Shown piece after piece: positions 9,648-62,966 of a DNA stretch of 64,000 nt. Made by a program: the position numbers and the translations under genes. Position 1 is the first letter of the stretch. Every line of letters begins with the position of its first letter. Source of the DNA: a virus; IMG/VR virus record IMGVR_UViG_3300042892_002669, positions 1-64,000 of that record; one strand, written 5' to 3'. Below the pieces are notes generated by a model. That model did not search any database, was not told the DNA's origin, and saw nothing but the letters and a program-made list of their open reading frames with translations.

Positions 9648-12600
9648 TTACTTTAATCCACTTAATTTCAAGAATTCAGCCATTAAGTCATTGGATTCAC
9701 TTACTTTTACTGAAGTATGTGGCAATGTGGTTTGATCGCGCTTTCTTCTGTTCAATCCACCAGATATAGTGTTCATCATAAAGTCTATATCTTGGTCAGC
9801 TTGGTCATCGGCTGAATTGGCATAGCTTTCTTCAACTTGTTCTTCAACTTCGTCTTTTTTAGATTTCTTTCTCTCATCACGAGCAGCATCCCATGAAGCT
9901 TTATCGTTATGATCTCCGCCCCAATTTTTTGGATTATCAGGATTTTCGTCATCTTCTTCGTCGTGTTCTTCGTATTCATCAGGATCGTCAGCTCTGGCTT
10001 CGTCTACCATTTGACCGTGTTCGCAAGAGCCTTCAGACATGCCACATTCATTGCATGAGCCTGATTCTTCTTCGTCGCTGGATTCTTCATCTGCGTAGTC
10101 GTCACTGGATTCGTCTGATCCAATACCTGACATCTTTTTCATCAGTGACAACATATCGTCACCACCTGATTCACCATCATCAACAGTGATAAGCGCAGTT
10201 CCTTCGTGGTCTTGATCACCTGACATGGGCACACCATAGTTAGAGAACTTGGTTGAGTCTTCTTGCTTGTTGCCCATGCCGCCTAAACCAGCGTTTCTCA
10301 TGATAGCCATGACTTCTTGTGCATCTGCACCCGAAGCAGTAACTGAGATAGTGTCATCTCCCTGATCGCCCTGTGTGGTGGATATAGTTAAACTTTCAGT
10401 TAATAACGAATTCAACTGTCTATTCCAACTTTCTAATTGTGTGTCCATATTTTTGCTTTCCTTAACATCAAAGTGTTTGTCGCCCAGTGTAAATGACTCT
10501 TTACCTGCAGCCTTTGCCATTTTTGCTGCATAAGTAAATGGACTTTCTTCTAATTCAGCTTCATCAATCTCTGACTTGCCTGTGGCAAATCTACCTAAAC
10601 CTGTACCTATATCAGATACATCTTTCTTGAATATGCTGAATGCGCCTTGTTTTTCTTTACTGCATTCACTTGCGGGCCAAACGTCCATGTCACCTGAAGC
10701 GGTGTGTACAAAACACTTGTCGCCTTCAACACGATCAACAGTTCCAGCAGTACCTCTCCAGTACACTGTTTCACCTGAATCAAATGCTTCTGGCAGCATG
10801 GCTGTTTCTGATGTTATCTGTGGTGCTCCCATGTCTTCTTGGAATCTGTTATATACCCATTGATGTGGATCGCCTGTACGTGCTTTGGCTATGCCATATG
10901 GAATCTCACCGCTGTCAAGGTAGTAATCAAACAGGGCCTCATATAAATCATCATCCATGTCCATATCTGGATTGGCCATGAACTGTTTGACTTCATGCTT
11001 GAATCTATTGGTAACATGCGCCAATGTATCATGCGAGTCTTCCATATGAATGCCTTCTTTGACAGTTTTCTTTGCTCTTAGTGCAGCAAAATCTTTAGCA
11101 TCTAATTTACCTTTTGGTGGGGCAACGTCAAGTTTCTTTTGACCACCTTTAAGACCTTCAAGTAAATCGTCGAGTGCGGCTGAATACGCCATGTGTACAA
11201 ATTCTTGTGTGTCTGGATGATTGCCACCTATTGTCCAATCCATTCCAGAAATATTGTCACTGTCAGGATATATAGTAGCAATTAATCCATTACTAAATTC
11301 TAATACCCACGTGCCGTCATCACCAGGAGGACCAAATGCAAATTCTAAATCTTCTGCGTTCGTTCTTAATGACCCCTGTTTTGTTGTACGGTTTGCCTTC
11401 ATTCCAGGATCATCACTGATGTTCATGGGAGTAATATCAAACTTGGGTAGATAACGTTTATCGTGTTTTGATCTGCCAAACATGCCTTCGTCTTGCTCGT
11501 CAATCTTTTTAGCAATTTTGTGTGCCTTGACAATTGTGCTTTTCTTCAGTGGAGGCTCGTCATCTGCTGCTTTCTTAGCCACTGCCATACCAATTGCATA
11601 TTTGTTTTTGGCTTTGGCTTCATTGATAGCTGCTTCTGATGATTCAATCCAATCTTTCAAACTGGATTTCTTCTCTTTGTACTCTGGGCTGCCCTTGGGT
11701 GGTTTGTCTGACAGTGTATGTCTGGTTACCTTGGTTGGGTTTGCTTTTGCATAAGATTTGCTCTCTTTATCTGAGGCACGCTTGGCAGCAGTGTCTTTTG
11801 GATTGGTAGCAACTACGTCACCCTTTGGACGACCACGCCCTTTTTTCTCAGCTGGCGCTTTGGAAACTGTAGTACCAGTATCTTCATCATCTGAGTCACC
11901 TTGGTATTCAGCGCCATAGCTGCCTGAATACTTCTGTCCCTTGATGTCAGCCATTTTAGCTTCGTTCATTGATATAGCATCCATGATGCCAAACATTTTT
12001 TTAAAGTCCATACTCATATGTGTTTCCTTAGATTCCTTTGTTATATTACTTAACTGCTTGATGTGCGCTAGTGCATCATCGCCTTCTTTTACTTGAGATT
12101 TGTCGCCGAGGCCAAAAAAGTTTTTAACTGCAGACAAGTTCCTGTCTCCAGATGCTTTTTGATCTGCTGCTTGTTGCGCAGCCTTTTCGGCGCCTGGATA
12201 CTGTTTGCCATAGTTGCTTTTGTTACTGTCCCATGCAATTTCATCGGGGCTTCTGGTAGTGTACAGGCCGCCAGTGCCAGTAGTTGTACTACCACCAGTA
12301 CCAGTACCTACAACTTGTGCTCCTGGTTCCAGTACAGGTTTGCCAGCGCCGGCTTGTGCTGCACGTAATTCAGTTGCTGCATCGGCAGGACTCATGCTAC
12401 TAATATTTGCTGGCAATGGCATTTTTGCATTTTGTGGTTCAATTATATTAGGCTGCATTGTATTGTTACTACCGCCGCGAGTTGCTGGCTGACTGGTAGT
12501 AGTATCTTCACCTGATTTATAATTGGGATTTGGTTTTCCGCCTACATATTGATATTCTGATGGTGTTGGACCACCAGCTGTTGCACTTGCTCTATCCGCT

Positions 12601-13679
12601 GTAGCTTGAGCTTGACGTTTGATGTTAGCTGATGCATTATTCGTAGGTGCCACTGGTTTAACTGCGGCCACCGGTGGTTGTTCACCAGTTGTAGTAGTGT
12701 TGCTACCCCGAGGAGCTTGTGCAAGATTTGATTGTGCTGCAATTCTTTCTCGCTCTCTACTGGCAGCATCAGGTCTTGCTGCGATTGCCAGCTTGGATGG
12801 TGGTGGCTTGACTGCAGGTGTTACCTTAGCTGGTATTGGCTTTGTTGGTAACGCCGCGTTAGGTGTAGTATTGAGCGGATATGTTCTTGACGGTAAACTT
12901 GCATTGTTGGCTGGCTCAGAGGCTGACCTCACCGGTGCTGCAGGTGTTGTTGCTACTGGTGCTGCAGGTGTTGTTGCTACTGGTGCTGCAGGTGCAGGTG
13001 CTGCGTTGGATGTGTTTGGTGCTGCGTTAGGTGGTGTTGTTGCTGCAGGTGCTGCAGGTGCTGTTGCTGCCCCAGAAGGAATCGCACCATACAATGCTTC
13101 TTTAGCAGCATCGTAGGCAGAAACGGCCGCGTATCCCAAGGCGCCAGCGCCGGCTAATGCCTTTTTTGGATTGTTCCATGCCAATTTTGCGGCATCAACT
13201 GCTCTGCTGGTTGCACTGGGCGTGTTCGCAGCCAGCGCAGCTTTCGCAGCTTTAGCATCCATAGCAGCTTGAATCTGTGGGGGTATTCGTTCATTCTTTG
13301 CACTTGCATTACTAAGATCGCCTTTTGTTGCGGCGGCTTTATCAGTAGCAGCCTTCTCAGTAGCAGCTTTCTCAGCAGTAGCAGCTTGGGCCGGCTTGGC
13401 CTTGGCAGCAGCTGGATTAACTAATATACTTTTTCCGGTATTAGCATTAGTCGAACCAGTTGGTACTGTATTTAATTTAGCTGTTGCAGGTTTAGCTTGT
13501 ACACCAAATTTGGACTTAAAATTAGGGTTGTTAACTTTACCTCCACCGCCACCTCCTGGAAAACCGCCTCCACCTAAATCAGGTGACATGAATGGATCTC
13601 CCCGGTGAGGGCTAGATTTTCCTAGATCACCCATGTATGTGTCGGCGTACGCCTCAGACAATATATTCTTGATCTTCAT
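9648..13679 (-). CDS. Giant low-complexity protein with capsid-targeting N-terminus, 1343 aa
   Basis: It begins MKIKNILSEAYADTYMG. The LSE|A site matches the capsid-targeting peptides of T4 internal proteins (for example MKTYQEFIAEA) cut by the prohead protease. Residues 60-480 are Ala/Pro/Thr low complexity with an eight-residue AAPVATTP repeat. The rest holds several small domains separated by candidate cleavage sites (AINE|A, VKE|G, LLTE|S, VDE|A). Near residue 1190 an acidic stretch surrounds a Cys/His cluster (CNEC, SCEHG) that may bind metal. It ends EFLKLSGLK. Likely a prohead-internal polyprotein or core component; function unknown. Confidence 0.65.
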   Translation of the reverse strand: MKIKNILSEAYADTYMGDLGKSSPHRGDPFMSPDLGGGGFPGGGGGGKVNNPNFKSKFGVQAKPATAKLNTVPTGSTNANTGKSILVNPAAAKAKPAQAATAEKAATEKAATDKAAATKGDLSNASAKNERIPPQIQAAMDAKAAKAALAANTPSATSRAVDAAKLAWNNPKKALAGAGALGYAAVSAYDAAKEALYGAIPSGAATAPAAPAATTPPNAAPNTSNAAPAPAAPVATTPAAPVATTPAAPVRSASEPANNASLPSRTYPLNTTPNAALPTKPIPAKVTPAVKPPPSKLAIAARPDAASRERERIAAQSNLAQAPRGSNTTTTGEQPPVAAVKPVAPTNNASANIKRQAQATADRASATAGGPTPSEYQYVGGKPNPNYKSGEDTTTSQPATRGGSNNTMQPNIIEPQNAKMPLPANISSMSPADAATELRAAQAGAGKPVLEPGAQVVGTGTGGSTTTGTGGLYTTRSPDEIAWDSNKSNYGKQYPGAEKAAQQAADQKASGDRNLSAVKNFFGLGDKSQVKEGDDALAHIKQLSNITKESKETHMSMDFKKMFGIMDAISMNEAKMADIKGQKYSGSYGAEYQGDSDDEDTGTTVSKAPAEKKGRGRPKGDVVATNPKDTAAKRASDKESKSYAKANPTKVTRHTLSDKPPKGSPEYKEKKSSLKDWIESSEAAINEAKAKNKYAIGMAVAKKAADDEPPLKKSTIVKAHKIAKKIDEQDEGMFGRSKHDKRYLPKFDITPMNISDDPGMKANRTTKQGSLRTNAEDLEFAFGPPGDDGTWVLEFSNGLIATIYPDSDNISGMDWTIGGNHPDTQEFVHMAYSAALDDLLEGLKGGQKKLDVAPPKGKLDAKDFAALRAKKTVKEGIHMEDSHDTLAHVTNRFKHEVKQFMANPDMDMDDDLYEALFDYYLDSGEIPYGIAKARTGDPHQWVYNRFQEDMGAPQITSETAMLPEAFDSGETVYWRGTAGTVDRVEGDKCFVHTASGDMDVWPASECSKEKQGAFSIFKKDVSDIGTGLGRFATGKSEIDEAELEESPFTYAAKMAKAAGKESFTLGDKHFDVKESKNMDTQLESWNRQLNSLLTESLTISTTQGDQGDDTISVTASGADAQEVMAIMRNAGLGGMGNKQEDSTKFSNYGVPMSGDQDHEGTALITVDDGESGGDDMLSLMKKMSGIGSDESSDDYADEESSDEEESGSCNECGMSEGSCEHGQMVDEARADDPDEYEEHDEEDDENPDNPKNWGGDHNDKASWDAARDERKKSKKDEVEEQVEESYANSADDQADQDIDFMMNTISGGLNRRKRDQTTLPHTSVKVSESNDLMAEFLKLSGLK
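12934..12994 (-). repeat. 24-bp tandem repeat coding for AAPVATTP
   Basis: Two perfect 24-base units (12934-12957 and 12958-12981) and a partial third lie inside the 1343-residue gene. They code for the eight-residue Ala/Pro/Thr repeat of its low-complexity region. Copy number may vary by slippage. Confidence 0.9.
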
Positions 13680-13897
13680 TTTCTACTACCTCTAGCGTCT
13701 AATTTTTCTTCTATTCTAGCCAACTGCTGTTGTACTGCAGTTAATTTTTCATTAGTGGACTGTGCTTTAACAGTGATCACTTCTACCTTTTTGTCTAAGT
13801 CAGCCATGGCAGTGTTCATGGTCATGTATCCTGTGCCACCCAAACTACAGGCGCCGATAACTATCCAAGTCAACTGGCCGGAGCTGAAGTCTATCAT
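13676..13897 (-). CDS. Small membrane protein with coiled coil, 73 aa
   Basis: One hydrophobic segment at residues 9-27 (LTWIVIGACSLGGTGYM) is followed by a coiled coil (KVEVITVKAQSTNEKL, QQLARIEEKL) and a basic tail (ARGSRK). The gene overlaps both neighbours by ATGA-type junctions. Similar proteins occur in aquatic T4-like phages as I recall. The single membrane segment and small size would fit a holin or spanin-like lysis factor, but that is a guess; a virion membrane-contact protein is equally possible. Confidence 0.7.
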   Translation of the reverse strand: MIDFSSGQLTWIVIGACSLGGTGYMTMNTAMADLDKKVEVITVKAQSTNEKLTAVQQQLARIEEKLDARGSRK

Positions 13898-14487
13898 TTT
13901 CTAGCTCCAGTGGCTGGCTTAGGAGGACGACTAACACTGGTCATTGGACTCTTGGTTTGTATGTTCTCTTTAGATTTGTTGGGCGCTGTGGGTGTTTTAT
14001 CACCTGCATAGTCAATAGTGACGCTTGGTTCTTTGGGTAACACTTTATCCAAATATTGATTGCCATAGTCTTTGTTTGCCTGCTCTGCGCCACTGTCAGT
14101 CTCATATGGACTGGTTATCAATGGGCTTGCCTGATTGGCGTATTGATCATTCTCACTGTTGATGCTGTCATCGTACTGTGAAGAAATCACTCTCACTGAG
14201 TTTATATTCTTACCCAACAATTGAGCCATTTGCTGAATCATTGGTTCAGTGGCAGGGTACTTGAACTCTGCTTTAAAGATATGAACTGACTCGTTTTTCA
14301 GATCAGGAAAGCCGTATGGGTCTTTCATGATGGGGATAGTTTTTGGATCGCTGACACTAACTGGATCAAATTTGTTCAAGTTGTACTTGAACATTTCAAT
14401 AAAATTCTTATCGAGATCACCTGCTATCTTAATAGTGTAATGGTATGTTCTTACACTTTCAGTTAAATATTGACGTAGACTTTTCAT
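13894..14487 (-). CDS. Protein with capsid-targeting-type N-terminus, 197 aa
   Basis: I choose ATG 14487, which has an AGGAAA Shine-Dalgarno 8 bases away; the longer frame from 14517 would start inside the late box. The resulting N-terminus is MKSLRQYLTESVRTY, where LTE|S fits the T4 capsid-targeting and cleavage motif. Residues 15-90 look like a folded alpha/beta domain (YHYTIKIAGDLDKNFIEMF, VHIFKAEFKYPATEPMI) resembling ferredoxin-like folds. The C-terminal 70 residues are Pro/Lys/Ser-rich and disordered. It could be an internal head protein that is packaged and injected; function unknown. Confidence 0.65.
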   Translation of the reverse strand: MKSLRQYLTESVRTYHYTIKIAGDLDKNFIEMFKYNLNKFDPVSVSDPKTIPIMKDPYGFPDLKNESVHIFKAEFKYPATEPMIQQMAQLLGKNINSVRVISSQYDDSINSENDQYANQASPLITSPYETDSGAEQANKDYGNQYLDKVLPKEPSVTIDYAGDKTPTAPNKSKENIQTKSPMTSVSRPPKPATGARK

Positions 14488-14506
14488 GGTTTGTTTCCTA
14501 TTAGTA

Positions 14507-14998
14507 TTATTTATCACTATTGGTGTTTTTGTTTGCCAATAACATTTTCAGCAGTTCGTTTCTATCAAGTACACTGCCCGTTCCCAATGGCGTAGATTCT
14601 ACTTCTTTGGTCTTTTCTGTGGTTTTTTGATCTAATGCTGCTTTTTTAAGCTGCAAGTCAATCATTTTTAACTTTTTATTCAATTTAGCTGTTTTTGCAG
14701 TGATTGCATGCCCCAACATACTGCTGGCACTGTTAAATATCTCACTGGCAAATCTGCTGTCCACTTGCATTCCCAGTTCCATCAAGTCATCAAAGCTTTC
14801 TTTGGCTAACTGTGCCAGTTCATCCATCTCAGCATCGCTGGCTTCTAACCCTCGTACCTGGGGTAATGCACTTTCTATTTTTTCTAAATTTGAATATGCC
14901 TGAGTAGTAACTTGCTCAATTGCCTGCACTTGGTCAGACTCACGCTGTGGTGCAATATCTTCTGGCAATTCAAACAATTCTGAAAGTTTCTTTGTCAT
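14507..14998 (-). CDS. Helical protein, terminase small subunit (gp16-like) candidate, 163 aa
   Basis: A helical protein with a central region (FASEIFNSASSMLGHAITAK) between acidic N-terminal and charged C-terminal parts. Length (T4 gp16 is 164) and the all-helical layout fit the terminase small subunit, and head-completion and tail genes follow upstream. No diagnostic motif is visible, so the call rests on size and context. The large subunit gene lies 43 kb away at 57497, which is unusual for the pair. A different head-associated role is possible. Confidence 0.45.
   Translation of the reverse strand: MTKKLSELFELPEDIAPQRESDQVQAIEQVTTQAYSNLEKIESALPQVRGLEASDAEMDELAQLAKESFDDLMELGMQVDSRFASEIFNSASSMLGHAITAKTAKLNKKLKMIDLQLKKAALDQKTTEKTKEVESTPLGTGSVLDRNELLKMLLANKNTNSDK
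14508..14515 (-). promoter_or_regulatory. Late promoter box GATAAATA
   Basis: Lies 20 bases before the ATG at 14487, overlapping the end of the 163-residue gene. Its place decides the downstream start codon. Confidence 0.65.
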
Positions 14999-54038: not shown

Positions 54039-55037
54039 TTATACCTTAGCCTGGCGTGAGCGAATCATTGCCAAAATATCTTGGGCTTTGTCGCTTGACG
54101 GTGCTGGAGCTTGTGCAGCGACTGCTGCGGGTGGAGTTTCAAATTGGTCGTCACCTGTCCAAGGAGCAGTAGCAGGTGCTGCTGCAGGCTTGCTGGTTAC
54201 CACTGTTTCAAATGTATCAGTGGCGGCCTTGACTGCACCAGCTGGTGCATCCAAACCATATGGACGATAGTATGCACCCCAACGTTCGTTGTCGTAGGGT
54301 TTACCATCCACACTTGCCTCAAACATTTCTTTCATGATGCGCAGTTCTGCTTCACCAGGTTTCTTTGGCAAGAATTCTGACAGATTGAAAAGACCATGTG
54401 CTTCAATTGCAGCTTGTTCAGCCTCAGTCAATGCACTTTCTTTACGACTCCAAGTTGAAGTGCTATAGTCTGCATAGCCACCCTTGGATGTTTTAGTCAC
54501 GCGGAAATCAAGACCCTGCATGTAGTCAGTGGGCAGGTTTTCCATTTCAGGATCCATCAAGCTGGACTTGATAATGGTAAAGATTTGTGGACTGATGATG
54601 AAACGACGAATTGGATTCGCAGGAGCCTTGTCATCACCAATTGGATTCTGACGTACAAAACCCTGAAACAGGTAGCTGCGTTTCTTCCAGTACTTGTTGG
54701 CCATTTCTTTCAATGACTCATCTTTGTACCAGGGACGTACTTCTGCCAAGATTGGGCAGCTATCGCCATACATTTCTACGCATGGAACTTGTACCACAAC
54801 TTGTTTGCTATTGCTATCACCCTTGACACCATTGAATGGCAGCTTGATTACTTGACGCTCTACCCAGAAGAAAGTGTTAGCTGCGTCACCGTCTGGTAAG
54901 AAACGAATGGTAGCGTTGGTACCTTCTTCCATATTCCAATGGGCGTAGATTGAGTTGTCGCTTTGGGTAGGGGATGCTGATGATGATTTGTTTTCTTGTG
55001 CCGCGATACGGGCACGAATTTCTGCTAATGAAGCCAT
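54039..55037 (-). CDS. 32: Single-stranded DNA binding protein (gp32-like)
   Basis: Coats single strands and organises replication and recombination. The N-terminus (SLAEIRARIAAQ) is the basic self-association part. The core has IYAHWNMEEGTNATIRFLPD, then FFWVERQVIKLPF and VPCVEMYGDSCPI, and SYLFQGFVRQNP, as in cyanophage gp32. Only two Cys in the zinc region are seen, fewer than T4. The C-terminus is Ala/Pro-rich, ending SSDKAQDILAMIRSRQAKV. The leader has a hairpin and both early and late promoter elements. Confidence 0.93.
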   Translation of the reverse strand: MASLAEIRARIAAQENKSSSASPTQSDNSIYAHWNMEEGTNATIRFLPDGDAANTFFWVERQVIKLPFNGVKGDSNSKQVVVQVPCVEMYGDSCPILAEVRPWYKDESLKEMANKYWKKRSYLFQGFVRQNPIGDDKAPANPIRRFIISPQIFTIIKSSLMDPEMENLPTDYMQGLDFRVTKTSKGGYADYSTSTWSRKESALTEAEQAAIEAHGLFNLSEFLPKKPGEAELRIMKEMFEASVDGKPYDNERWGAYYRPYGLDAPAGAVKAATDTFETVVTSKPAAAPATAPWTGDDQFETPPAAVAAQAPAPSSDKAQDILAMIRSRQAKV

Positions 55038-55081
55038 GATATTTCCTTTATATTAAGATGGTCTTTGTTTTTTATTGTCGC

Positions 55082-55098
55082 TACTTCACTATGAAGTA
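55082..55098 (-). promoter_or_regulatory. gp32 leader hairpin
   Basis: Perfect TACTTCA-TAG-TGAAGTA stem in the leader, followed by an A-rich single-stranded stretch before AAGGAAA and ATG. T4 gp32 represses its own translation by binding a leader pseudoknot plus an unstructured stretch, so a like role is plausible. Confidence 0.5.
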
Positions 55099-55102
55099 AC
55101 TA

Positions 55103-55139
55103 ACGCAGACACTATTATAACAAACAATAGCATCTGCGT
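55103..55139 (-). repeat. Inverted repeat flanking the gp32 -10 box
   Basis: ACGCAGA at 55103-55109 and TCTGCGT at 55133-55139, seven perfect pairs around the TATAAT. Could be an operator or a stem that forms only in DNA. Confidence 0.5.
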
Positions 55140-55142
55140 CAA
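55114..55142 (-). promoter_or_regulatory. Sigma70-type early promoter for gp32
   Basis: TTGACG (55137-55142), 17-base spacer and TATAAT (55114-55119). The leader is about 70 bases. Confidence 0.8.
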
Positions 55143-55145
55143 GTA

Positions 55146-55153
55146 TATTTATC
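55146..55153 (-). promoter_or_regulatory. Late promoter box GATAAATA upstream of gp32
   Basis: Lies four bases upstream of the -35 box of the early promoter. The two promoters together would keep gp32 expressed in both phases. Confidence 0.5.
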
Positions 55154-55191
55154 CCAAATGGGACAAATAGATTTTTTTACTGCAGTTTTTA

Positions 55192-57468
55192 CTACTTTAT
55201 TAACCCAGATAGTCTGCGCATTGCAGCCAACTGGTCAGTACTCTCGTCTACACCAACCAGATCGCCTGGTTTGGCACTAAGAAAATCTCCCAATTCTTCT
55301 GCACCACGGCCCCGTTTACCACTTTGATGTTTCCATTCAGAACCAACACGAACAATTTTATCACCGTCGTCATTTACATAAACACGACTGTCGTCCGTGT
55401 AGTACCCAAAAGAATTTAGGGTCGATATCAGAGTATCTTTTGACTCAGAGCCTTCCGACACACCTTGCTCTTTATTTGCTAACTGGTCTAACTTGTCATA
55501 GCGGTCAAAATGCTTCTTGGAAGTTTTGGTATCGCCCTTCATACTGGCATCTTGTGACTTGGCAATTTCTTGTCCAGCACGACTTTTAACATCTTGACCT
55601 GTAGCCAAACGCTTGATATCTTTTCCCAAGCCCTCCGCCACACCTTGCTCTACTGGTCGTTTGAAATTTGGACGAGGTGCTTTACCACTCAGAAACTTCC
55701 CAACATCGGACCAATGACCCACTACTTGGCCTTGTTTGTTTAGTGCTACGATTTTATCATCTTTTTTCGTAATAGTATATCCACTACTTTTAGCCTGATC
55801 TTTCCAATCATACCAACTTGTAAACTTATCAGATTCATTCAATGAGCCTTCCGCTACACCTTTTGTGACCCGAGCAACACCTACCTGCTGATCTTTTGGC
55901 TCAATTGGCTGTTGACCTTGTTCTTGTTCCTTGCGCTTTTTTGCAGCCAGGTCTGCCACGCTACCTTTGCGAGGCTTTTTTGCACCGTAACTGAATGGAC
56001 CAGCCTCCGCCACACCTTCTTTGGGTTCCTGTCTGTCGTACTGACGTTGAGCGCGAGCCTGACTATCATCGGGAAATTGATGGGGTTTCTTGGGTGATTG
56101 GTATTGGTCACCGCGAATGCCTTTGTACACACGCTCACCAGTTTCAGGATCATCCTCGTAGTGATGACGTTCACCTGGACGTAAACTCTCTGCCACTTCT
56201 GGAGTCATGGGTCTTTCAATCTTGTCTATCACACTGTGCATGCGATGGTCATCCGATTGTTCCATCCAATTGATAATGGTTTCAACTGCATCTGCATCAG
56301 GATCTTGCTCTGACAATTCTTCCAGTAGGCCGTTCAACTGATCATCTTCCAAGTTTACCGAAGCCAACATTGCTTTTGCATTCATTGCATTTGGCCCAAC
56401 CACAATCTCATCACTCAACATGCCTGCCAAATCATCCAACTGAGGCATACTCTTGGGTGCTAATCTTTCACTGACCAATTGATCGGCCCACTCTGACAAT
56501 TCAGATATTTCAGCCACTTCATTCATAGAATTGCGACCTCGGCTGATCTTGGACAATATGGGCATGGCGCTTTCTATTCTTGGATCCAATGTGGCGTTCA
56601 TAAACATCTCACTGAGATCCGCACCAGCTGCGTCTTCTATTAGAGTGGGTGACCAATTGTCAAAATGTTCATTGTAGCCACGCTTGCCTGCCATTTTGCG
56701 CAATGACTCACGCAACTGCAGATAGTGTTCAGTGCCTTCTGTGACCAATTGTTGTGTGCTTTCATTGAACTGACCATTTTTAGTGGCTCTGACAAAGCCT
56801 GCCATTTTGGTATAGTCTTCGCACATCTCTCGGATATGATTCCAACGCTCGTCGTTTGGTAATCCACCTTCAGCTATGTGTCTGGCGAAAGGTCTGGCCA
56901 ATCCAGGTTTGGTAGTTGGTGCCAGTACTCGTTCACCCAATGAGTTCTCAATAAAGATTTGAGCAATGTTTCTGTAGCGTTGCTCACCTTCTTCTATTTT
57001 GCGGGTGTGCTTGATCACCATCTTTACTGTGGGAACTGCATCGCTGTAGCTGCCTGACTTGCCCATGGGGTAGTAACCCTCATCCAGTTTTTTTGTGTTT
57101 TCTCTTTTTGCCATATCGTATTTTAAATTGTCAATATCACTTAATTCAAATTTGCTTACTTTACCAAATGTCAGTTTGCGCAATCTGGCAGTTAGTTCGT
57201 GGAAACTGAGCATGCCATCATCAGTTGAACCAGCTGGACTCCCAGCAACGTCATCCCCAAAGTACAGTGTAAGTTCACCAGTGCCGTCGATTCCTATAGT
57301 GATAGTTCCATAGTTTTCTCCGTCTTTGATAAAGTTAAACTGAAACACATCGGCGTCATCGGTTATAGCCATTTCTTTGCCCGACGAATCCAGCATGGTT
57401 GGCTTGTATCCGTTGGTCTTCAAGAACTTGAACACTGTGGCTTTTACTGAGTTTTGGTTAATTGGCAT
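55192..57468 (-). CDS. Modular polyprotein with GVAE junction repeats, 758 aa
   Basis: The N-terminal domain (ATVFKFLKTNGYKPTMLDSS, then FQFNFIKDGENYGTITIG) is followed by a helical middle (residues 150-430). The C-terminal third is built from small units separated by GVAEAGPF, GVAEGSLN, GVAEGLGK and GVSEGSES. These junctions fit the T4 prohead protease rule (hydrophobic-x-Glu|Gly/Ala). One unit (TSWYDWKDQAKSSGYTITKK) and another (LISTLNSFGYYTDDSRVYVN) look like independent small folds. It ends AAMRRLSGLIK. Possibly processed in the capsid and injected. No known function; late box upstream. Confidence 0.65.
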   Translation of the reverse strand: MPINQNSVKATVFKFLKTNGYKPTMLDSSGKEMAITDDADVFQFNFIKDGENYGTITIGIDGTGELTLYFGDDVAGSPAGSTDDGMLSFHELTARLRKLTFGKVSKFELSDIDNLKYDMAKRENTKKLDEGYYPMGKSGSYSDAVPTVKMVIKHTRKIEEGEQRYRNIAQIFIENSLGERVLAPTTKPGLARPFARHIAEGGLPNDERWNHIREMCEDYTKMAGFVRATKNGQFNESTQQLVTEGTEHYLQLRESLRKMAGKRGYNEHFDNWSPTLIEDAAGADLSEMFMNATLDPRIESAMPILSKISRGRNSMNEVAEISELSEWADQLVSERLAPKSMPQLDDLAGMLSDEIVVGPNAMNAKAMLASVNLEDDQLNGLLEELSEQDPDADAVETIINWMEQSDDHRMHSVIDKIERPMTPEVAESLRPGERHHYEDDPETGERVYKGIRGDQYQSPKKPHQFPDDSQARAQRQYDRQEPKEGVAEAGPFSYGAKKPRKGSVADLAAKKRKEQEQGQQPIEPKDQQVGVARVTKGVAEGSLNESDKFTSWYDWKDQAKSSGYTITKKDDKIVALNKQGQVVGHWSDVGKFLSGKAPRPNFKRPVEQGVAEGLGKDIKRLATGQDVKSRAGQEIAKSQDASMKGDTKTSKKHFDRYDKLDQLANKEQGVSEGSESKDTLISTLNSFGYYTDDSRVYVNDDGDKIVRVGSEWKHQSGKRGRGAEELGDFLSAKPGDLVGVDESTDQLAAMRRLSGLIK
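55450..56016 (-). repeat. Four short repeats coding GV(A/S)E(A/G)
   Basis: Copies at 55450-55464, 55630-55644, 55846-55860 and 56002-56016, spaced 180, 216 and 156 bases (whole codons). The first two share AAGGTGTG with CGGA. DNA likeness also at wobble positions suggests recent module duplication. Confidence 0.8.
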
Positions 57469-57490: not shown

Positions 57491-57498
57491 TATTTATC
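57491..57498 (-). promoter_or_regulatory. Late promoter box GATAAATA
   Basis: Lies 22 bases before ATG 57468 and overlaps the terminase stop codon. Confidence 0.65.
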
Positions 57499-59050
57499 AA
57501 CTCATCACTGCATAGAAGGGCAGCGGGGGCAGGAATTCGTCATAATCTCTGATTTGAGTCTCCAATTCCATGTGAAAGCTGCCCAATTCTTGTATCATTC
57601 TGACTATCAGTAGCGTAGACATGACCAAATCATCAGTTTCTCCCGATTTTGCTGCATAACTGCCACCATGGGCCACAAAAGTCTTGAGTTCACTTATCAG
57701 ACTGCGGCTGTTTATCTTCATCTTCTTGGATTCTATCAACTGCTTTAGCTTGGCGCATGCTGCCAGTTTACTCTTGTTGGTGGTGTTAAATCCCTTGCGT
57801 TTTTTAACTCCAGACTCCGTTAGCATGGTGCCAGGTATGTTGTGCTCACCATATTCATGCAGCGACACATTGGCAGCTTCGCCTATACTATTGTTTTCCA
57901 AACTGTAATAGATATTGTTTGGTTCGCCCGTACATTCAACTATGTACTTGATAATCTGCGTGATCAATTTAACTTGCTCGGGGATCGCGGTTTTGTTGTG
58001 CTTCCATTCACCAATCTGGGTAGTGGAGTTTGCTTCAAATATTTGTATAGCCGCTGGATCGCCACCAGTGCCCAAACTTGGATCCAGTCCAATAACATAA
58101 ATGTTGCCTTTGGTTGGTTGCTTGTACCAACGAATTTGTCCCTGTCTGGTAGTGGGTTCAACTCCTTCAAGTTCAAACAGTGCATTGGCATTGATCAGTG
58201 TTTCATCTGCAATGATAAATTCAATTTCCATTTCACGACGGAATCTGTCATCACCCAACTGTGCTCGCATACTGGTAGCCCAGGCTTCATCACGTTCAGG
58301 ATGTGATCTCCAAGTGGCTTTGTACGCACGGAATCCATTGATGCCCAATTCTGTTTCGTTGCCATACTCATCTTCACATTTGTTTGCACCTTTCCAAATC
58401 AGTGCAAATTGATCTTCGTCACTGTTTGGTGTGCTGGTTATAATTGCTTTACCACCAGTTGATAGTGTTGGAGTAATGGATGTCCAGAACTCTTTGGCTA
58501 TGGTTGGTCTTACGAATGCAAACTCGTCCAAGTACAGTAGTGAGATAGATAGACCACGACCTGTGTTTTCAGTTGTAGTTGCGCTTATGATACGACTGCC
58601 GTTGTCAAAGTCTATGTTACCCTTGTTGTAGGTGACCGCCCCTGCTTTAATATGATGAGGACAATTCTCATATGCATATCTTACACGAGACATGATTTCT
58701 TGTGCGCCTGCATATTTGTGCGCTGCAATCAGTATAGTAGTATCAGGTACAAACATAGCGTACCACAAGAGGTAACCTGCGGCACTGGTTGATTTACCTG
58801 TTTGTCGTGCCATCAAGCTGATACTGAATCGGTAATTATGATAAGTGTGTATCAGTTCTTTTTGGAAATCCCATGGATGATAGAGCAAACTGCCGCGAGT
58901 TGGATGCTGTATATAGAAGAAATTGTCCATGAAGTAGAGATATCCCATGATGGGATCACTACATTTTACGAAATCGTCCAGTTGCTGTTGATTGGCAAAC
59001 GTGGTTTTCTCGTAAGGAGTTTTTATTAACGCGGTGATATTTGTACTCAT
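57497..59050 (-). CDS. 17: Terminase large subunit (gp17-like)
   Basis: DNA-packaging motor and headful nuclease. Walker A ARQTGKST, motif around TTILIAAHKYAGAQEIMSR, Walker B SLLYLDEFAF and coupling motif ITSTPN in the ATPase; then the RNase H-like nuclease with YVIGLDPSLGTGGDPAA and SLENNSIGEA. 517 residues, shorter than T4 gp17 (610). The ATG is 6 bases after a TCTAAATA late box, so the message may be leaderless. Confidence 0.96.
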   Translation of the reverse strand: MSTNITALIKTPYEKTTFANQQQLDDFVKCSDPIMGYLYFMDNFFYIQHPTRGSLLYHPWDFQKELIHTYHNYRFSISLMARQTGKSTSAAGYLLWYAMFVPDTTILIAAHKYAGAQEIMSRVRYAYENCPHHIKAGAVTYNKGNIDFDNGSRIISATTTENTGRGLSISLLYLDEFAFVRPTIAKEFWTSITPTLSTGGKAIITSTPNSDEDQFALIWKGANKCEDEYGNETELGINGFRAYKATWRSHPERDEAWATSMRAQLGDDRFRREMEIEFIIADETLINANALFELEGVEPTTRQGQIRWYKQPTKGNIYVIGLDPSLGTGGDPAAIQIFEANSTTQIGEWKHNKTAIPEQVKLITQIIKYIVECTGEPNNIYYSLENNSIGEAANVSLHEYGEHNIPGTMLTESGVKKRKGFNTTNKSKLAACAKLKQLIESKKMKINSRSLISELKTFVAHGGSYAAKSGETDDLVMSTLLIVRMIQELGSFHMELETQIRDYDEFLPPLPFYAVMS

Positions 59051-61141: not shown

Positions 61142-61759
61142 TTATAGTTCTCTCTTTTTACAGTTATCAAAATGCCATCGTTGCATTACCCCAGAGCCAC
61201 CTAAGGTATTACAATGAGGACATACTATTTTGGGTTTTGGTTTACCTGCATTTGCTTCGCTATTTTTCCTTTTCCATTCATCTGATTGTACTTTTCCGAA
61301 GTTGGGATTATTAACACCAGTGCGAAGTTTATTTTTTGCGGAAAGGTCAGGTCGGGCGATTCCGCGTTTTTTGTTTGCTCTTTTATTTTTGTGTTCTGAC
61401 GATTGTGGACCATATGGGGGTCTTTTCCCTCGCATTTTGTCTAATGATTTTTCAGTGTGTTTTTCTCCCAAACGACATGGTCTATTATCATTGTTGTGTT
61501 GGTTGAAACTTCGTGGGTCATTTTTAGCGTCAAGAAGCTGTAGAATTTCTGTTTCTAACTGATAGATGTCTTTAGATTCACCCTCACAAATTATTTGACG
61601 AGACCACTCAGTGGGATTGGACAGTATAAGAGGTTTTACTTTTTTACTACTGCATAAGTAGCCATCATTTGGGTGGCAACCAATAGCATACCGTGAGCCA
61701 ATATACCAGCTGAGCGTTGGGAGGTGCGTCCATTTGTAAACATAAGCAATCGTTTTCAC
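61142..61759 (-). CDS. GIY-YIG homing endonuclease (Seg-like), 205 aa
   Basis: A GIY-YIG module at the N-terminus (IAYVYKWTHLPTLSWYIGSR), an NUMOD3-type region (GVNNPNFGKVQSDEWKRKNS) and a C-terminal zinc finger (VCPHCNTLGGSGVMQRWHFD, then NCKK). T4 carries several free-standing homing enzymes of this kind, which spread by cutting related phage genomes. The site near the methyltransferase may be its insertion point. No own promoter is seen. Confidence 0.88.
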   Translation of the reverse strand: MKTIAYVYKWTHLPTLSWYIGSRYAIGCHPNDGYLCSSKKVKPLILSNPTEWSRQIICEGESKDIYQLETEILQLLDAKNDPRSFNQHNNDNRPCRLGEKHTEKSLDKMRGKRPPYGPQSSEHKNKRANKKRGIARPDLSAKNKLRTGVNNPNFGKVQSDEWKRKNSEANAGKPKPKIVCPHCNTLGGSGVMQRWHFDNCKKREL

Positions 61760-61791: not shown

Positions 61792-62163
61792 TTATTTTCC
61801 AAATCCCTTAAAGGCCATCATGGGACTTGACTTGTTGGTACTGTCCAATTCCTCACTCTTTAGATCACCTTTGTTAAGGTCTTGGTAATCGGCGCCTGCC
61901 GCTTTGTAAGCCTGCTTGAGCATTTTTTGCTCTACATCAGTGTATGGATGAGCCGTTCTTTGCTTACCCACCCAGCTGGTTGAGTTGATGTCTATAGGAT
62001 TGGTTCCATCTGCACAAGCCGCTGCCATCATCACACGATTAAGTGTGTAATCACTGTTTGCTTGTTCCTTATCGTGAAACAAATTAAGACCTTTTGTGGC
62101 CTTTTGTTGGCGTTTGGTAATCTTACCTTTTTTGGCTTCGCCTATGAATTCTTTTGCTCTCAT
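61792..62163 (-). CDS. Small protein with capsid-targeting-type N-terminus, 123 aa
   Basis: Begins MRAKEFIGEAKKGKITKRQQ. EFIGE|A is the closest match here to the T4 internal-protein signal (QEFIAE|A). The remainder is conserved in aquatic phages I recall (SDYTLNRVMMAAACADGTNP, SWVGKQRTAHPYTDVEQKML, KQAYKAAGADYQDL) and basic-helical. It may be an internal head protein injected with DNA. GCTAAATA lies 5 bases before ATG. Confidence 0.65.
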   Translation of the reverse strand: MRAKEFIGEAKKGKITKRQQKATKGLNLFHDKEQANSDYTLNRVMMAAACADGTNPIDINSTSWVGKQRTAHPYTDVEQKMLKQAYKAAGADYQDLNKGDLKSEELDSTNKSSPMMAFKGFGK

Positions 62164-62176: not shown

Positions 62177-62966
62177 TGTTTATTTGGTAAGTGATAGTAT
62201 GTACAATTGTGGTGTCTAGTAATGGACTAACAGTCAATCTCATGTTGCCACCTGCAATAACTGCATCATATGTGGTTACTGGGCTTCCAGCAAACAGAGT
62301 TCCATATACTGAATGTCCTACTGTAGTGCCATTGTTATTTTTTCTCACAGACACAGTGGCCAATTGACTGTTTTGCGAACCAGTTTCACGTGAGCTTACT
62401 TCAAACTTGCCATTGTTAAATGATGCCAGTGGTAATTGATAGACGATTTGATTGGCAGCGTTATTTGCAGTAGTCACTGTCAGCGAATTCAGTACAGAAT
62501 TACCGTATGTGATGCTGTTTTGAACTGACAAACTGCCCAAACTCAGGTCAGGCTTAACATTGGATCCAGCAACACTAAAGCTAATTGAGTTGCCCACTTC
62601 TGTTACTTGTACGTTGCCAATACGCAATGCAGTTGAGCTTAAGTACAAGTTGCCAATGGTGTTGCTGGCGCTGCCTATGCTTATGGTGTTAGCAACCAGG
62701 GGAATTAGATTAACTCCCAAATTTAATCTGCTATTGCCACCATCAAGTGCCAGGTTACTAGTACCCACAAACGAATTTGTAGTTACGTTACCCACTGTGG
62801 CAGATGTTTTGAATTGCAATGCTCCATCAGGTCCAGTGGGATTTAGCCCACTAGTAGTGTTGGCAGTGTCTACGAAATTGTTGTTGATTTTTATAAATGC
62901 TACTCTGACTGGATCGCCTGTTCCGTCGTTGGGTAGTTCACCTACATTAATTAGTTCATAAGCCAT
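62172..62966 (-). CDS. Virion appendage / fibre-like protein, 264 aa
   Basis: Begins MAYELINVGELPNDGTGDPV, then RVAFIKINNNFVD, the anchor module shared with the 704-residue fibre. The body has IGSASNTIGNLYLSSTALRI and TVTTANNAANQIVYQLPL, and the end is a beta sandwich (AVIAGGNMRLTVSPLLDTTI). It probably is a fibre or baseplate part. Confidence 0.75.
   Translation of the reverse strand: MAYELINVGELPNDGTGDPVRVAFIKINNNFVDTANTTSGLNPTGPDGALQFKTSATVGNVTTNSFVGTSNLALDGGNSRLNLGVNLIPLVANTISIGSASNTIGNLYLSSTALRIGNVQVTEVGNSISFSVAGSNVKPDLSLGSLSVQNSITYGNSVLNSLTVTTANNAANQIVYQLPLASFNNGKFEVSSRETGSQNSQLATVSVRKNNNGTTVGHSVYGTLFAGSPVTTYDAVIAGGNMRLTVSPLLDTTIVHTITYQINS

Follow-up and report, generated by a model that had tools for sequence, protein, structure and literature searches.

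The window analysed here is a stretch of 64,000 nucleotides from an IMG/VR virus record of 77,105 bases. On its minus strand lies a long gene, hereafter the window gene, which follows the gene for the large terminase subunit and precedes a gene for a gp32-like single-stranded DNA-binding protein (Table 1). This order is near-identical to that of the Pseudomonas jumbo phage PA5oct, where one extra gene stands between the terminase gene and the homologue gp278. Residues 1-345 of the window protein match a virion structural protein of the PA5oct group (tblastn, ~24% identity, E ~1e-12), and residues 140-272 match PHROG 13484, a head and packaging family (profile search, E 2.2e-8). Both the PHROG 13484 membership and the position after the large terminase gene correspond to the PA5oct-type arrangement. 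The source is an uncultured T4-related giant phage and the window gene is its head-protein gene. A Pfam scan found no domains in the window protein. Neither an S77 protease gene nor a gp23 gene was found in the 77-kb record, probably because it is a fragment.

Table 1. Features of the window gene and its neighbours. Positions refer to the window; hxE denotes hydrophobic residue, any residue, glutamate, and an arrow marks a putative cut position.
Feature	Position	Strand	Remarks
Terminase large subunit, neighbour	57497..59050	-	51% identity with the enzyme of PA5oct (Pseudomonas jumbo phage) and its kin
Whole ORF, 758 aa	55192..57468	-	virion-protein anchor and module string
N-terminal domain, residues 1-130	57079..57468	-	predicted propeptide, ends LDE↓; 14.4 kDa, pI 4.9
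Conserved anchor core GYYPMG... and linker, residues 131-488	56005..57078	-	40.6 kDa
Junction 1, GVAEA (E488)	56016-56002	-	
Module M1, residues 489-540	55849..56004	-	5.6 kDa, pI 9.9
Junction 2, GVAEG (E540)	55860-55846	-	
Module M2, residues 541-612	55633..55848	-	predicted folded; 8.1 kDa, pI 9.3
Junction 3, GVAEG (E612)	55644-55630	-	
Module M3, residues 613-672	55453..55632	-	6.6 kDa, pI 9.3
Junction 4, GVSEG (E672)	55464-55450	-	
Module M4, residues 673-742	55243..55452	-	ends VDE↓
Conserved C-terminal tail, residues 743-758 (STDQLAAMRRLSGLIK)	55195..55242	-	preceded by hxE↓S; kept in orthologs
gp32-like ssDNA-binding protein, neighbour	54039..55037	-	PHROG 1192, E 3e-63

We compared the window gene with an ortholog set of 58 loci, mostly 48-57% identical. 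The anchor and the short C-terminal tail were kept in the orthologs, and the stretch between them varied from ~60 to 660 residues and contained differing modules. The AF2 model of the window protein was weak overall (mean pLDDT 54), with folded blocks at residues 1-126, at residues 145-270 and in M2 (pLDDT 71-90 over residues 541-590). A low-confidence stretch at residues 127-144 separates the first two blocks and spans the putative cut site in front of the anchor; all four junctions likewise sit in low-confidence segments that are predicted to be disordered. The anchor fold had no PDB match below E 0.1, and its matches in BFVD were uncultured phage proteins, one of them named 'large polyvalent protein-associated'.

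The window protein begins with MPINQNSVKATVF and contains no hxE in its first 16 residues, so that it has no short capsid-targeting leader. Such leader-like starts were present in three other minus-strand ORFs of the window, of 123 aa (61792-62163; MRAKEFIGEAKKGK, which has an hxE↓A site and resembles the capsid-targeting leaders of T4), 1343 aa (9648-13679; MKIKNILSEAYADTY) and 207 aa (13894-14517; MKSLRQYLTESVRT). The 123-aa and 1343-aa ORFs had no PHROG match, and the former may be a single-module internal protein. The minus-strand region 61142-61759 looked GIY-YIG endonuclease-like by eye, and is possibly a homing nuclease near virion genes.

The initial annotation had described four GV(A/S)E(A/G) junctions in the C-terminal third of the protein, with coding DNA that is alike even at silent positions. 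We confirmed these junctions, which lie 52, 72 and 60 residues apart. The first and last are A and S variants (GVAEA and GVSEG), and the serine codon TCG of GVSEG differs by one base from the alanine codon GCG. The junction word, CAAGGTGTGGCGGAAGG, translates as Q-GVAE↓G. When up to 3 mismatches were allowed, the word AAGGTGTNNCGGARGSCT had four copies in the window, all within this gene, whereas 0.8 were expected and none of 100 shuffles of the window gave four copies.

The likeness at silent positions extends far past this gene. For an unbiased codon set we used loci fetched by protein similarity, not by the DNA word. In these loci, the GVAE codons were GGT in 27/27 cases (background 0.60), GTG in 23/27 (background 0.12, p=9e-18) and GCG in 19/27 (background 0.06, p=8e-18); the p-values here and below are indicative, because shared descent among the loci remains after removal of near-duplicates by sequence. 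A scan of viral contigs for AGGTGTNGCNGARGGCT yielded at least 120 stretches, most of which encode GVAEG in long ORFs, often 2-7 times. At ~100 further junctions in the scanned ORFs, which were themselves outside the scan, we found GGT in 96%, GTG in 88% and GCG in 86% of the cases, compared with 45%, 25% and 11%, respectively, elsewhere in the scanned ORFs. There was barely any conservation flanking the word.

Silent positions conserved far above codon usage, together with exchange borders that fall at the word (see below), could indicate that the word is mainly a DNA element, such that the modules are selfish or site-specific in-frame cassettes and GVAEG is a tolerated translation. The distribution of the word makes this quite improbable. 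The fetched loci contained 172 distinct copies of AAGGTGTGGCGGAAGG, every one of them read as GVAE within an ORF that was long or end-cut, and none occurred in non-coding DNA or in another frame. In 20 virus records, near-copies numbered only 1-7 per record and were grouped in few arrays, and a reversed control pattern gave zero hits. Moreover, the words share no common flanking sequence, those of one gene resemble each other no more than those of different genes (0.858 vs 0.855), and relatives keep hxE↓G without the word.

The same low copy number, few arrays and in-frame position led us to reject a Chi-like general recombination signal. Concerted evolution of the words within a gene was also unsupported (identity 0.858 within a gene vs 0.855 overall, null SD 0.006). 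In bacterial and archaeal genomes (257 Gb) the 19-mer gave 7 scattered, unrelated chance matches, and it was not found in plasmids. Because of the conserved silent codons, the single frame of 172/172 copies, the low copy number and the mere chance matches in bacteria, we conclude that the word is virus-specific, rare per genome, and under constraint at the DNA as well as the protein level.

Two contigs contained repeated word pairs. In contig G011 (of locus L041), two pairs (54990-55308 and 62359-62677), with words 303 nt apart in each, stand in mirror order and opposite orientation, possibly owing to an inverted duplication of the module array or to an assembly artefact. In contig G026 (of locus L174; 524,565 bases), an identical word pair with 381-nt spacing occurs at 176504-176900 and at 524057-524453. 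The second pair stands at the very end of the contig, and the repeat is possibly a duplicated locus or terminal redundancy.

The suggestion of the initial annotation that modules are shuffled at the DNA level is now strongly supported. Our search for GVAEG modules in other phage genomes revealed that units are exchanged: three modules (M2, M3 and M4) recur in further phages, where they belong to other proteins and have different neighbours. Copies of M2 were 81-97% identical (loci L196, L201 and L205) and copies of M3 79-90% identical (loci L211-L217), in each case between other modules. The DNA of the M4 copy in locus L208 was 97-100% identical over ~180 nt, with different modules on both sides, and therefore points to recent transfer. 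DNA alignments of modules showed ~90-100% identity, beginning at one word and ending at the next. Over all module ORFs, 38% of the starts and 48% of the ends of blastn matches fell at a junction, versus 6% of random points, and 38/57 module clusters were flanked on either side by at least two different neighbours. A close copy of M1 starts the module protein of locus L079, right behind a leader that ends in hxE↓A (LDE↓A) without a GVAE junction; leader and copy read MFVNDIFKKLDE↓AGPFRS..RRGSVADLAAKKRREQERGKQ. Internal modules had a median length of 81 residues and a median pI of 8.25, compared with 6.14 for other ORFs. Exchange of these modules extends over hundreds of aquatic phages.

The Pfam content of the scanned relatives was limited to GNAT, LysM, cytidylyltransferase-like, GP88 and DUF domains. 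An ART-like reading of one module (locus L105, YLYHAT...) was unsupported, with no PDB sequence match and an AF2 mean pLDDT of 35. The module KSRYxVWPSAYASG was found in at least ~600 viral contigs, and modules common with loci L034 or L037 in >350 cultured phage records, nearly all of them cyanophages.

Each junction had further been proposed to fit the cleavage rule of the T4 prohead protease. The rule for T4 gp21 is L/I-x-E (PMC9026906). The junctions conform to hydrophobic-x-Glu, but their valine at P3 makes this a relaxed fit to the strict rule. Motifs of the hxE type are frequent in such acidic proteins, and counts of hxE followed by a small residue were dropped as evidence: the C-terminal regions of the orthologs had 168 vs 75 in shuffled sequences and the N-terminal anchor 191 vs 76. 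Because the anchor is as enriched as the module region, such counts prove nothing alone.

The position of the sites is more specific. Directly before the GYYPMG anchor core, [LIV]xE↓G was present in 57/57 orthologs (ISE 33, LDE 19, VDE 3, IDE 1, IKE 1), with a free middle residue (P2), and PA5oct has VSE↓S at the corresponding position. Just before the C-terminal tail, hxE followed by a small residue occurred in 27/33 distinct sequences, again with a free P2 (VGE, VTE, VKE, VSE, VDE, MAE, VLE and LPE). Anchor and tail sites lack the DNA word, and therefore what they share is the protein pattern. In locus L212 (1036-5115), ~820 residues of modules are inserted between ISE↓ and ↓SYYPMG of an otherwise conserved protein. 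The KSRYxVWPSAYASG module had hxE at most 5 residues upstream in 41/61 distinct segments, compared with 12% of randomly chosen positions in these ORFs; about a third of its starts had a GKGSG-type or other linker upstream and no hxE. Free variation of the junctions among relatives was seen by half: their number and wording vary, but hydrophobic-x-Glu before a small residue is mostly kept. In locus L206, too, modules stand within the anchor core or immediately in front of it, at an ...E↓(G/S)YY site, and are not confined to the C-terminus.

Signal-like sequences provide a second line of evidence. The Tat-like RRxF[LIV] motifs in module ORFs all (4/4) begin 2-7 residues past a junction, for example GVAE↓DLSRRGFLKGAGAAG, and locus L055 has a sub-threshold Pfam TAT_signal. 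Of 73 hydrophobic segments, 11 begin 2-14 residues past a junction, where 3.3 were expected (indicative p=0.001). Export signals function at N-termini, and mid-chain signals are therefore difficult to account for without a cut immediately upstream. Capsid-targeting-like N-termini were found in 24/58 module proteins and in 128/806 other proteins (indicative p=9e-6).

Tat- or Sec-like signals stand right behind GVAEG-type junctions in long ORFs at loci L055, L094, L114, L116, L016, L084, L090, L109 and L120, and their sequences suggest that such modules may be meant for export in the new host. At locus L016, a cytidylyltransferase-like protein contains a GVAEG junction and, behind this junction, a Sec-like signal module.

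The modules could instead act in one chain, as an uncut modular virion protein in which the junctions are flexible linkers and their DNA is a recombination seam. Whole multi-domain phage and plasmid proteins exist (N4 virion RNAP, ArdC and TraC1; PMC5512222), many module borders of cyanophages are GKGSG or lysine-rich linkers, and the disorder predicted around the junctions would suit linkers as well. Nevertheless, we consider an uncut chain unlikely, because hxE↓G with a free P2 is kept at two word-less places (anchor and tail), because Tat- and Sec-like signals occur mid-chain right behind junctions, and because the modules of locus L212 are inserted at the anchor core's own hxE site. Several things hence point to a chain that is likely cut at its junctions, namely the anchor and tail sites, the post-junction signals and the co-occurring S77 protease described below, with the valine at P3, outside the L/I rule, on the opposite side.

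An S77 prohead protease gene beside a gp23-type capsid gene was found in 5/25 word-bearing records, all >119 kb. The capsid proteins of these five phages read ...HLAE↓NATAGATSAGN..., which we take, from an alignment by eye, to stand at the maturation site of T4 gp23; LAE↓N/S would then be the capsid maturation site in word-bearing phages. The other 20/25 word-bearing records searched, many of which are probably fragments, had no detectable S77 protease. This would fit cleavage outside the prohead by another protease, either a host enzyme or one that acts after injection. We regard that as highly improbable, since glutamate at P1 with a hydrophobic P3 is the gp21-type rule and since five large contigs do have the S77 protease adjoining the gp23-type capsid gene.

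The initial annotation had also placed the modules in the capsid, and this part gains support by analogy from relatives in virions. For PA5oct gp278, a relative of the anchor, the annotation as virion protein is based on ESI-MS/MS. S-CREM2 gp160 (record 128342-129235), which carries the modules, corresponds to ORF160, and this protein was detected in the virion proteome with 7 unique peptides and 13.1% coverage (PMC10665884 Table 3). S-SCSM1 gp029 carries the modules as well and is annotated as 'virion protein'. For homologous module proteins of other phages, virion membership is thus established from published or annotated data. In cultured T4-like cyanophages the same modules lie in one ORF, several of these near terminase genes (Syn9 gp114, S-SM2_109 and S-SCSM2R_117). 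Cytidylyltransferase/NMNAT-like proteins recur in cyanophage virions (PMC3037559, PMC10665884, PMC9602691, PMC9146016). Residues 17-70 of S-CREM2 gp160 (L229:2584-3477) match PHROG 696, 'major head protein' (E 5e-10); its N-terminus is a head-protein fragment serving as leader of a module chain.

The locus and its relatives present a string of modules, a DNA word, exchange of modules between genes and phages, and conserved hxE sites before small residues. We think it fairly probable that they represent a cargo polyprotein on a head protein, cut by the prohead protease and subject to cassette exchange at the DNA level. The product of the window gene would be a T4-type head (virion) protein that acts as carrier, and the small, mostly basic modules between the conserved core and the conserved tail would form its cargo bay. 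Each module border would be a hydrophobic-x-Glu site followed by Gly, Ala or Ser, mostly encoded by one fixed DNA word. We infer that the chain enters the prohead as a fusion with the head protein, where the phage's S77 (gp21-type) prohead protease would cut behind the glutamates and yield separate small proteins with new N-termini. The predicted products are a 14.4-kDa N-terminal piece, a 40.6-kDa core, basic proteins of 5.6, 8.1 and 6.6 kDa (pI 9.3-9.9) and a 9.4-kDa C-terminal piece, the latter shorter by 16 residues at its end if VDE↓S is cleaved as well. The modules would be kept in the head, be ejected into the next host with the DNA, and act on that host. Because the borders carry the same ~16-nt word, modules can be exchanged, gained or lost in frame by recombination in the phage, which may proceed through single-strand annealing or a UvsX-type reaction inside the word.

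A wider version is plausible, and we advance it more tentatively. Aquatic T4-related phages may possess a general cargo system in which the fixed word CAAGGTGTGGCGGAAGG defines cassettes, the prohead protease cuts the polyproteins and some modules are exported. Recombination would then assemble multi-effector polyproteins that are cut inside the capsid for delivery, and Tat or Sec signals exposed only by the cut would route modules to the envelope of the newly infected cell.

If cargo cutting takes place as proposed, the cargo of very many uncultured phages could be read out from a 16-nt word and a single rule, cleavage after GVAE, comparable to the way in which capsid-targeting leaders revealed the internal proteins of T4. 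It would show how proteins carried in the virion, and possibly directed against defences, pass between phages as in-frame cassettes. It would also help to explain large families of unknown role (PHROG 727 and DUF6321), and would offer a naturally occurring linker with which phage heads could be loaded with several cargoes.

Parts of this arrangement are already known, namely injected gp21-processed internal proteins in T4, polyvalent proteins, and multi-site prohead cutting in jumbo phages. The T4 internal proteins IPI and IPII are basic proteins of ~8 and 10 kDa (PMC9026906), and an injected anti-defence role has been described for Ip1-3 (PMC9026906, PMC12373910). The predicted M1-M3 (5.6-8.1 kDa, pI 9.3-9.9) recall IPI and IPII in size and charge. 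More generally, the window gene would resemble IPI-III and Alt in its predicted small basic proteins, in putative maturation with glutamate at P1 and in a repertoire that is swapped between related phages. However, the T4 proteins are encoded by one gene per protein, each with a 10-residue leader, and are gp21-processed and injected, whereas the window protein has no such leader and is a virion protein to which several modules are strung, separated by sites that resemble cleavage sites and marked by a fixed DNA word.

Polyvalent proteins combine several host-directed domains in one phage polypeptide and have been likened to polyproteins (Iyer et al. 2017; PMC5512222). Like the cargo proposed for the window gene, they are thought to be packaged and injected. 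They contain embedded peptidase domains or stay uncut, and draw on a defined set of large domains. In contrast, the window protein has no embedded peptidase, its modules are mostly ~50-150 aa and most borders carry a nucleotide word; Pfam recognised no effector or peptidase domain in it that would indicate membership of this class. In phages SPN3US and phiKZ, head proteins (gp53, gp54 and others) are cut after a motif ending in glutamate (AXE↓ in SPN3US), sometimes at multiple sites (PMC10052503). There, N-terminal propeptides are removed, fragmented and mostly lost, whereas the pieces of the window protein look like conserved and exchanged cargo.

The PHROG 727/DUF6321 proteins of cyanophages (Syn9 gp114, S-SM2_109 and S-CREM2 gp160), several of which are encoded near terminase genes and which are annotated as unknown, share modules (KSRYxVWPSAYASG, DUF6321 and others) and the chain layout with the proteins described here. 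Their borders, however, are hxE↓K/G or GKGSG, without the GVAEG DNA word. Our literature search found no paper containing 'GVAEG' or 'DUF6321', and none that joins phage, polyprotein, prohead protease and internal proteins. Compared with the known systems, the new element, of which we found no description in the literature searched, is that exchangeable cargo modules follow one another in a chain and that a single nucleotide word, which also encodes a prohead-protease-like site, forms their borders. This points to a mechanism, not described before, by which small virion-carried proteins are assembled and traded.
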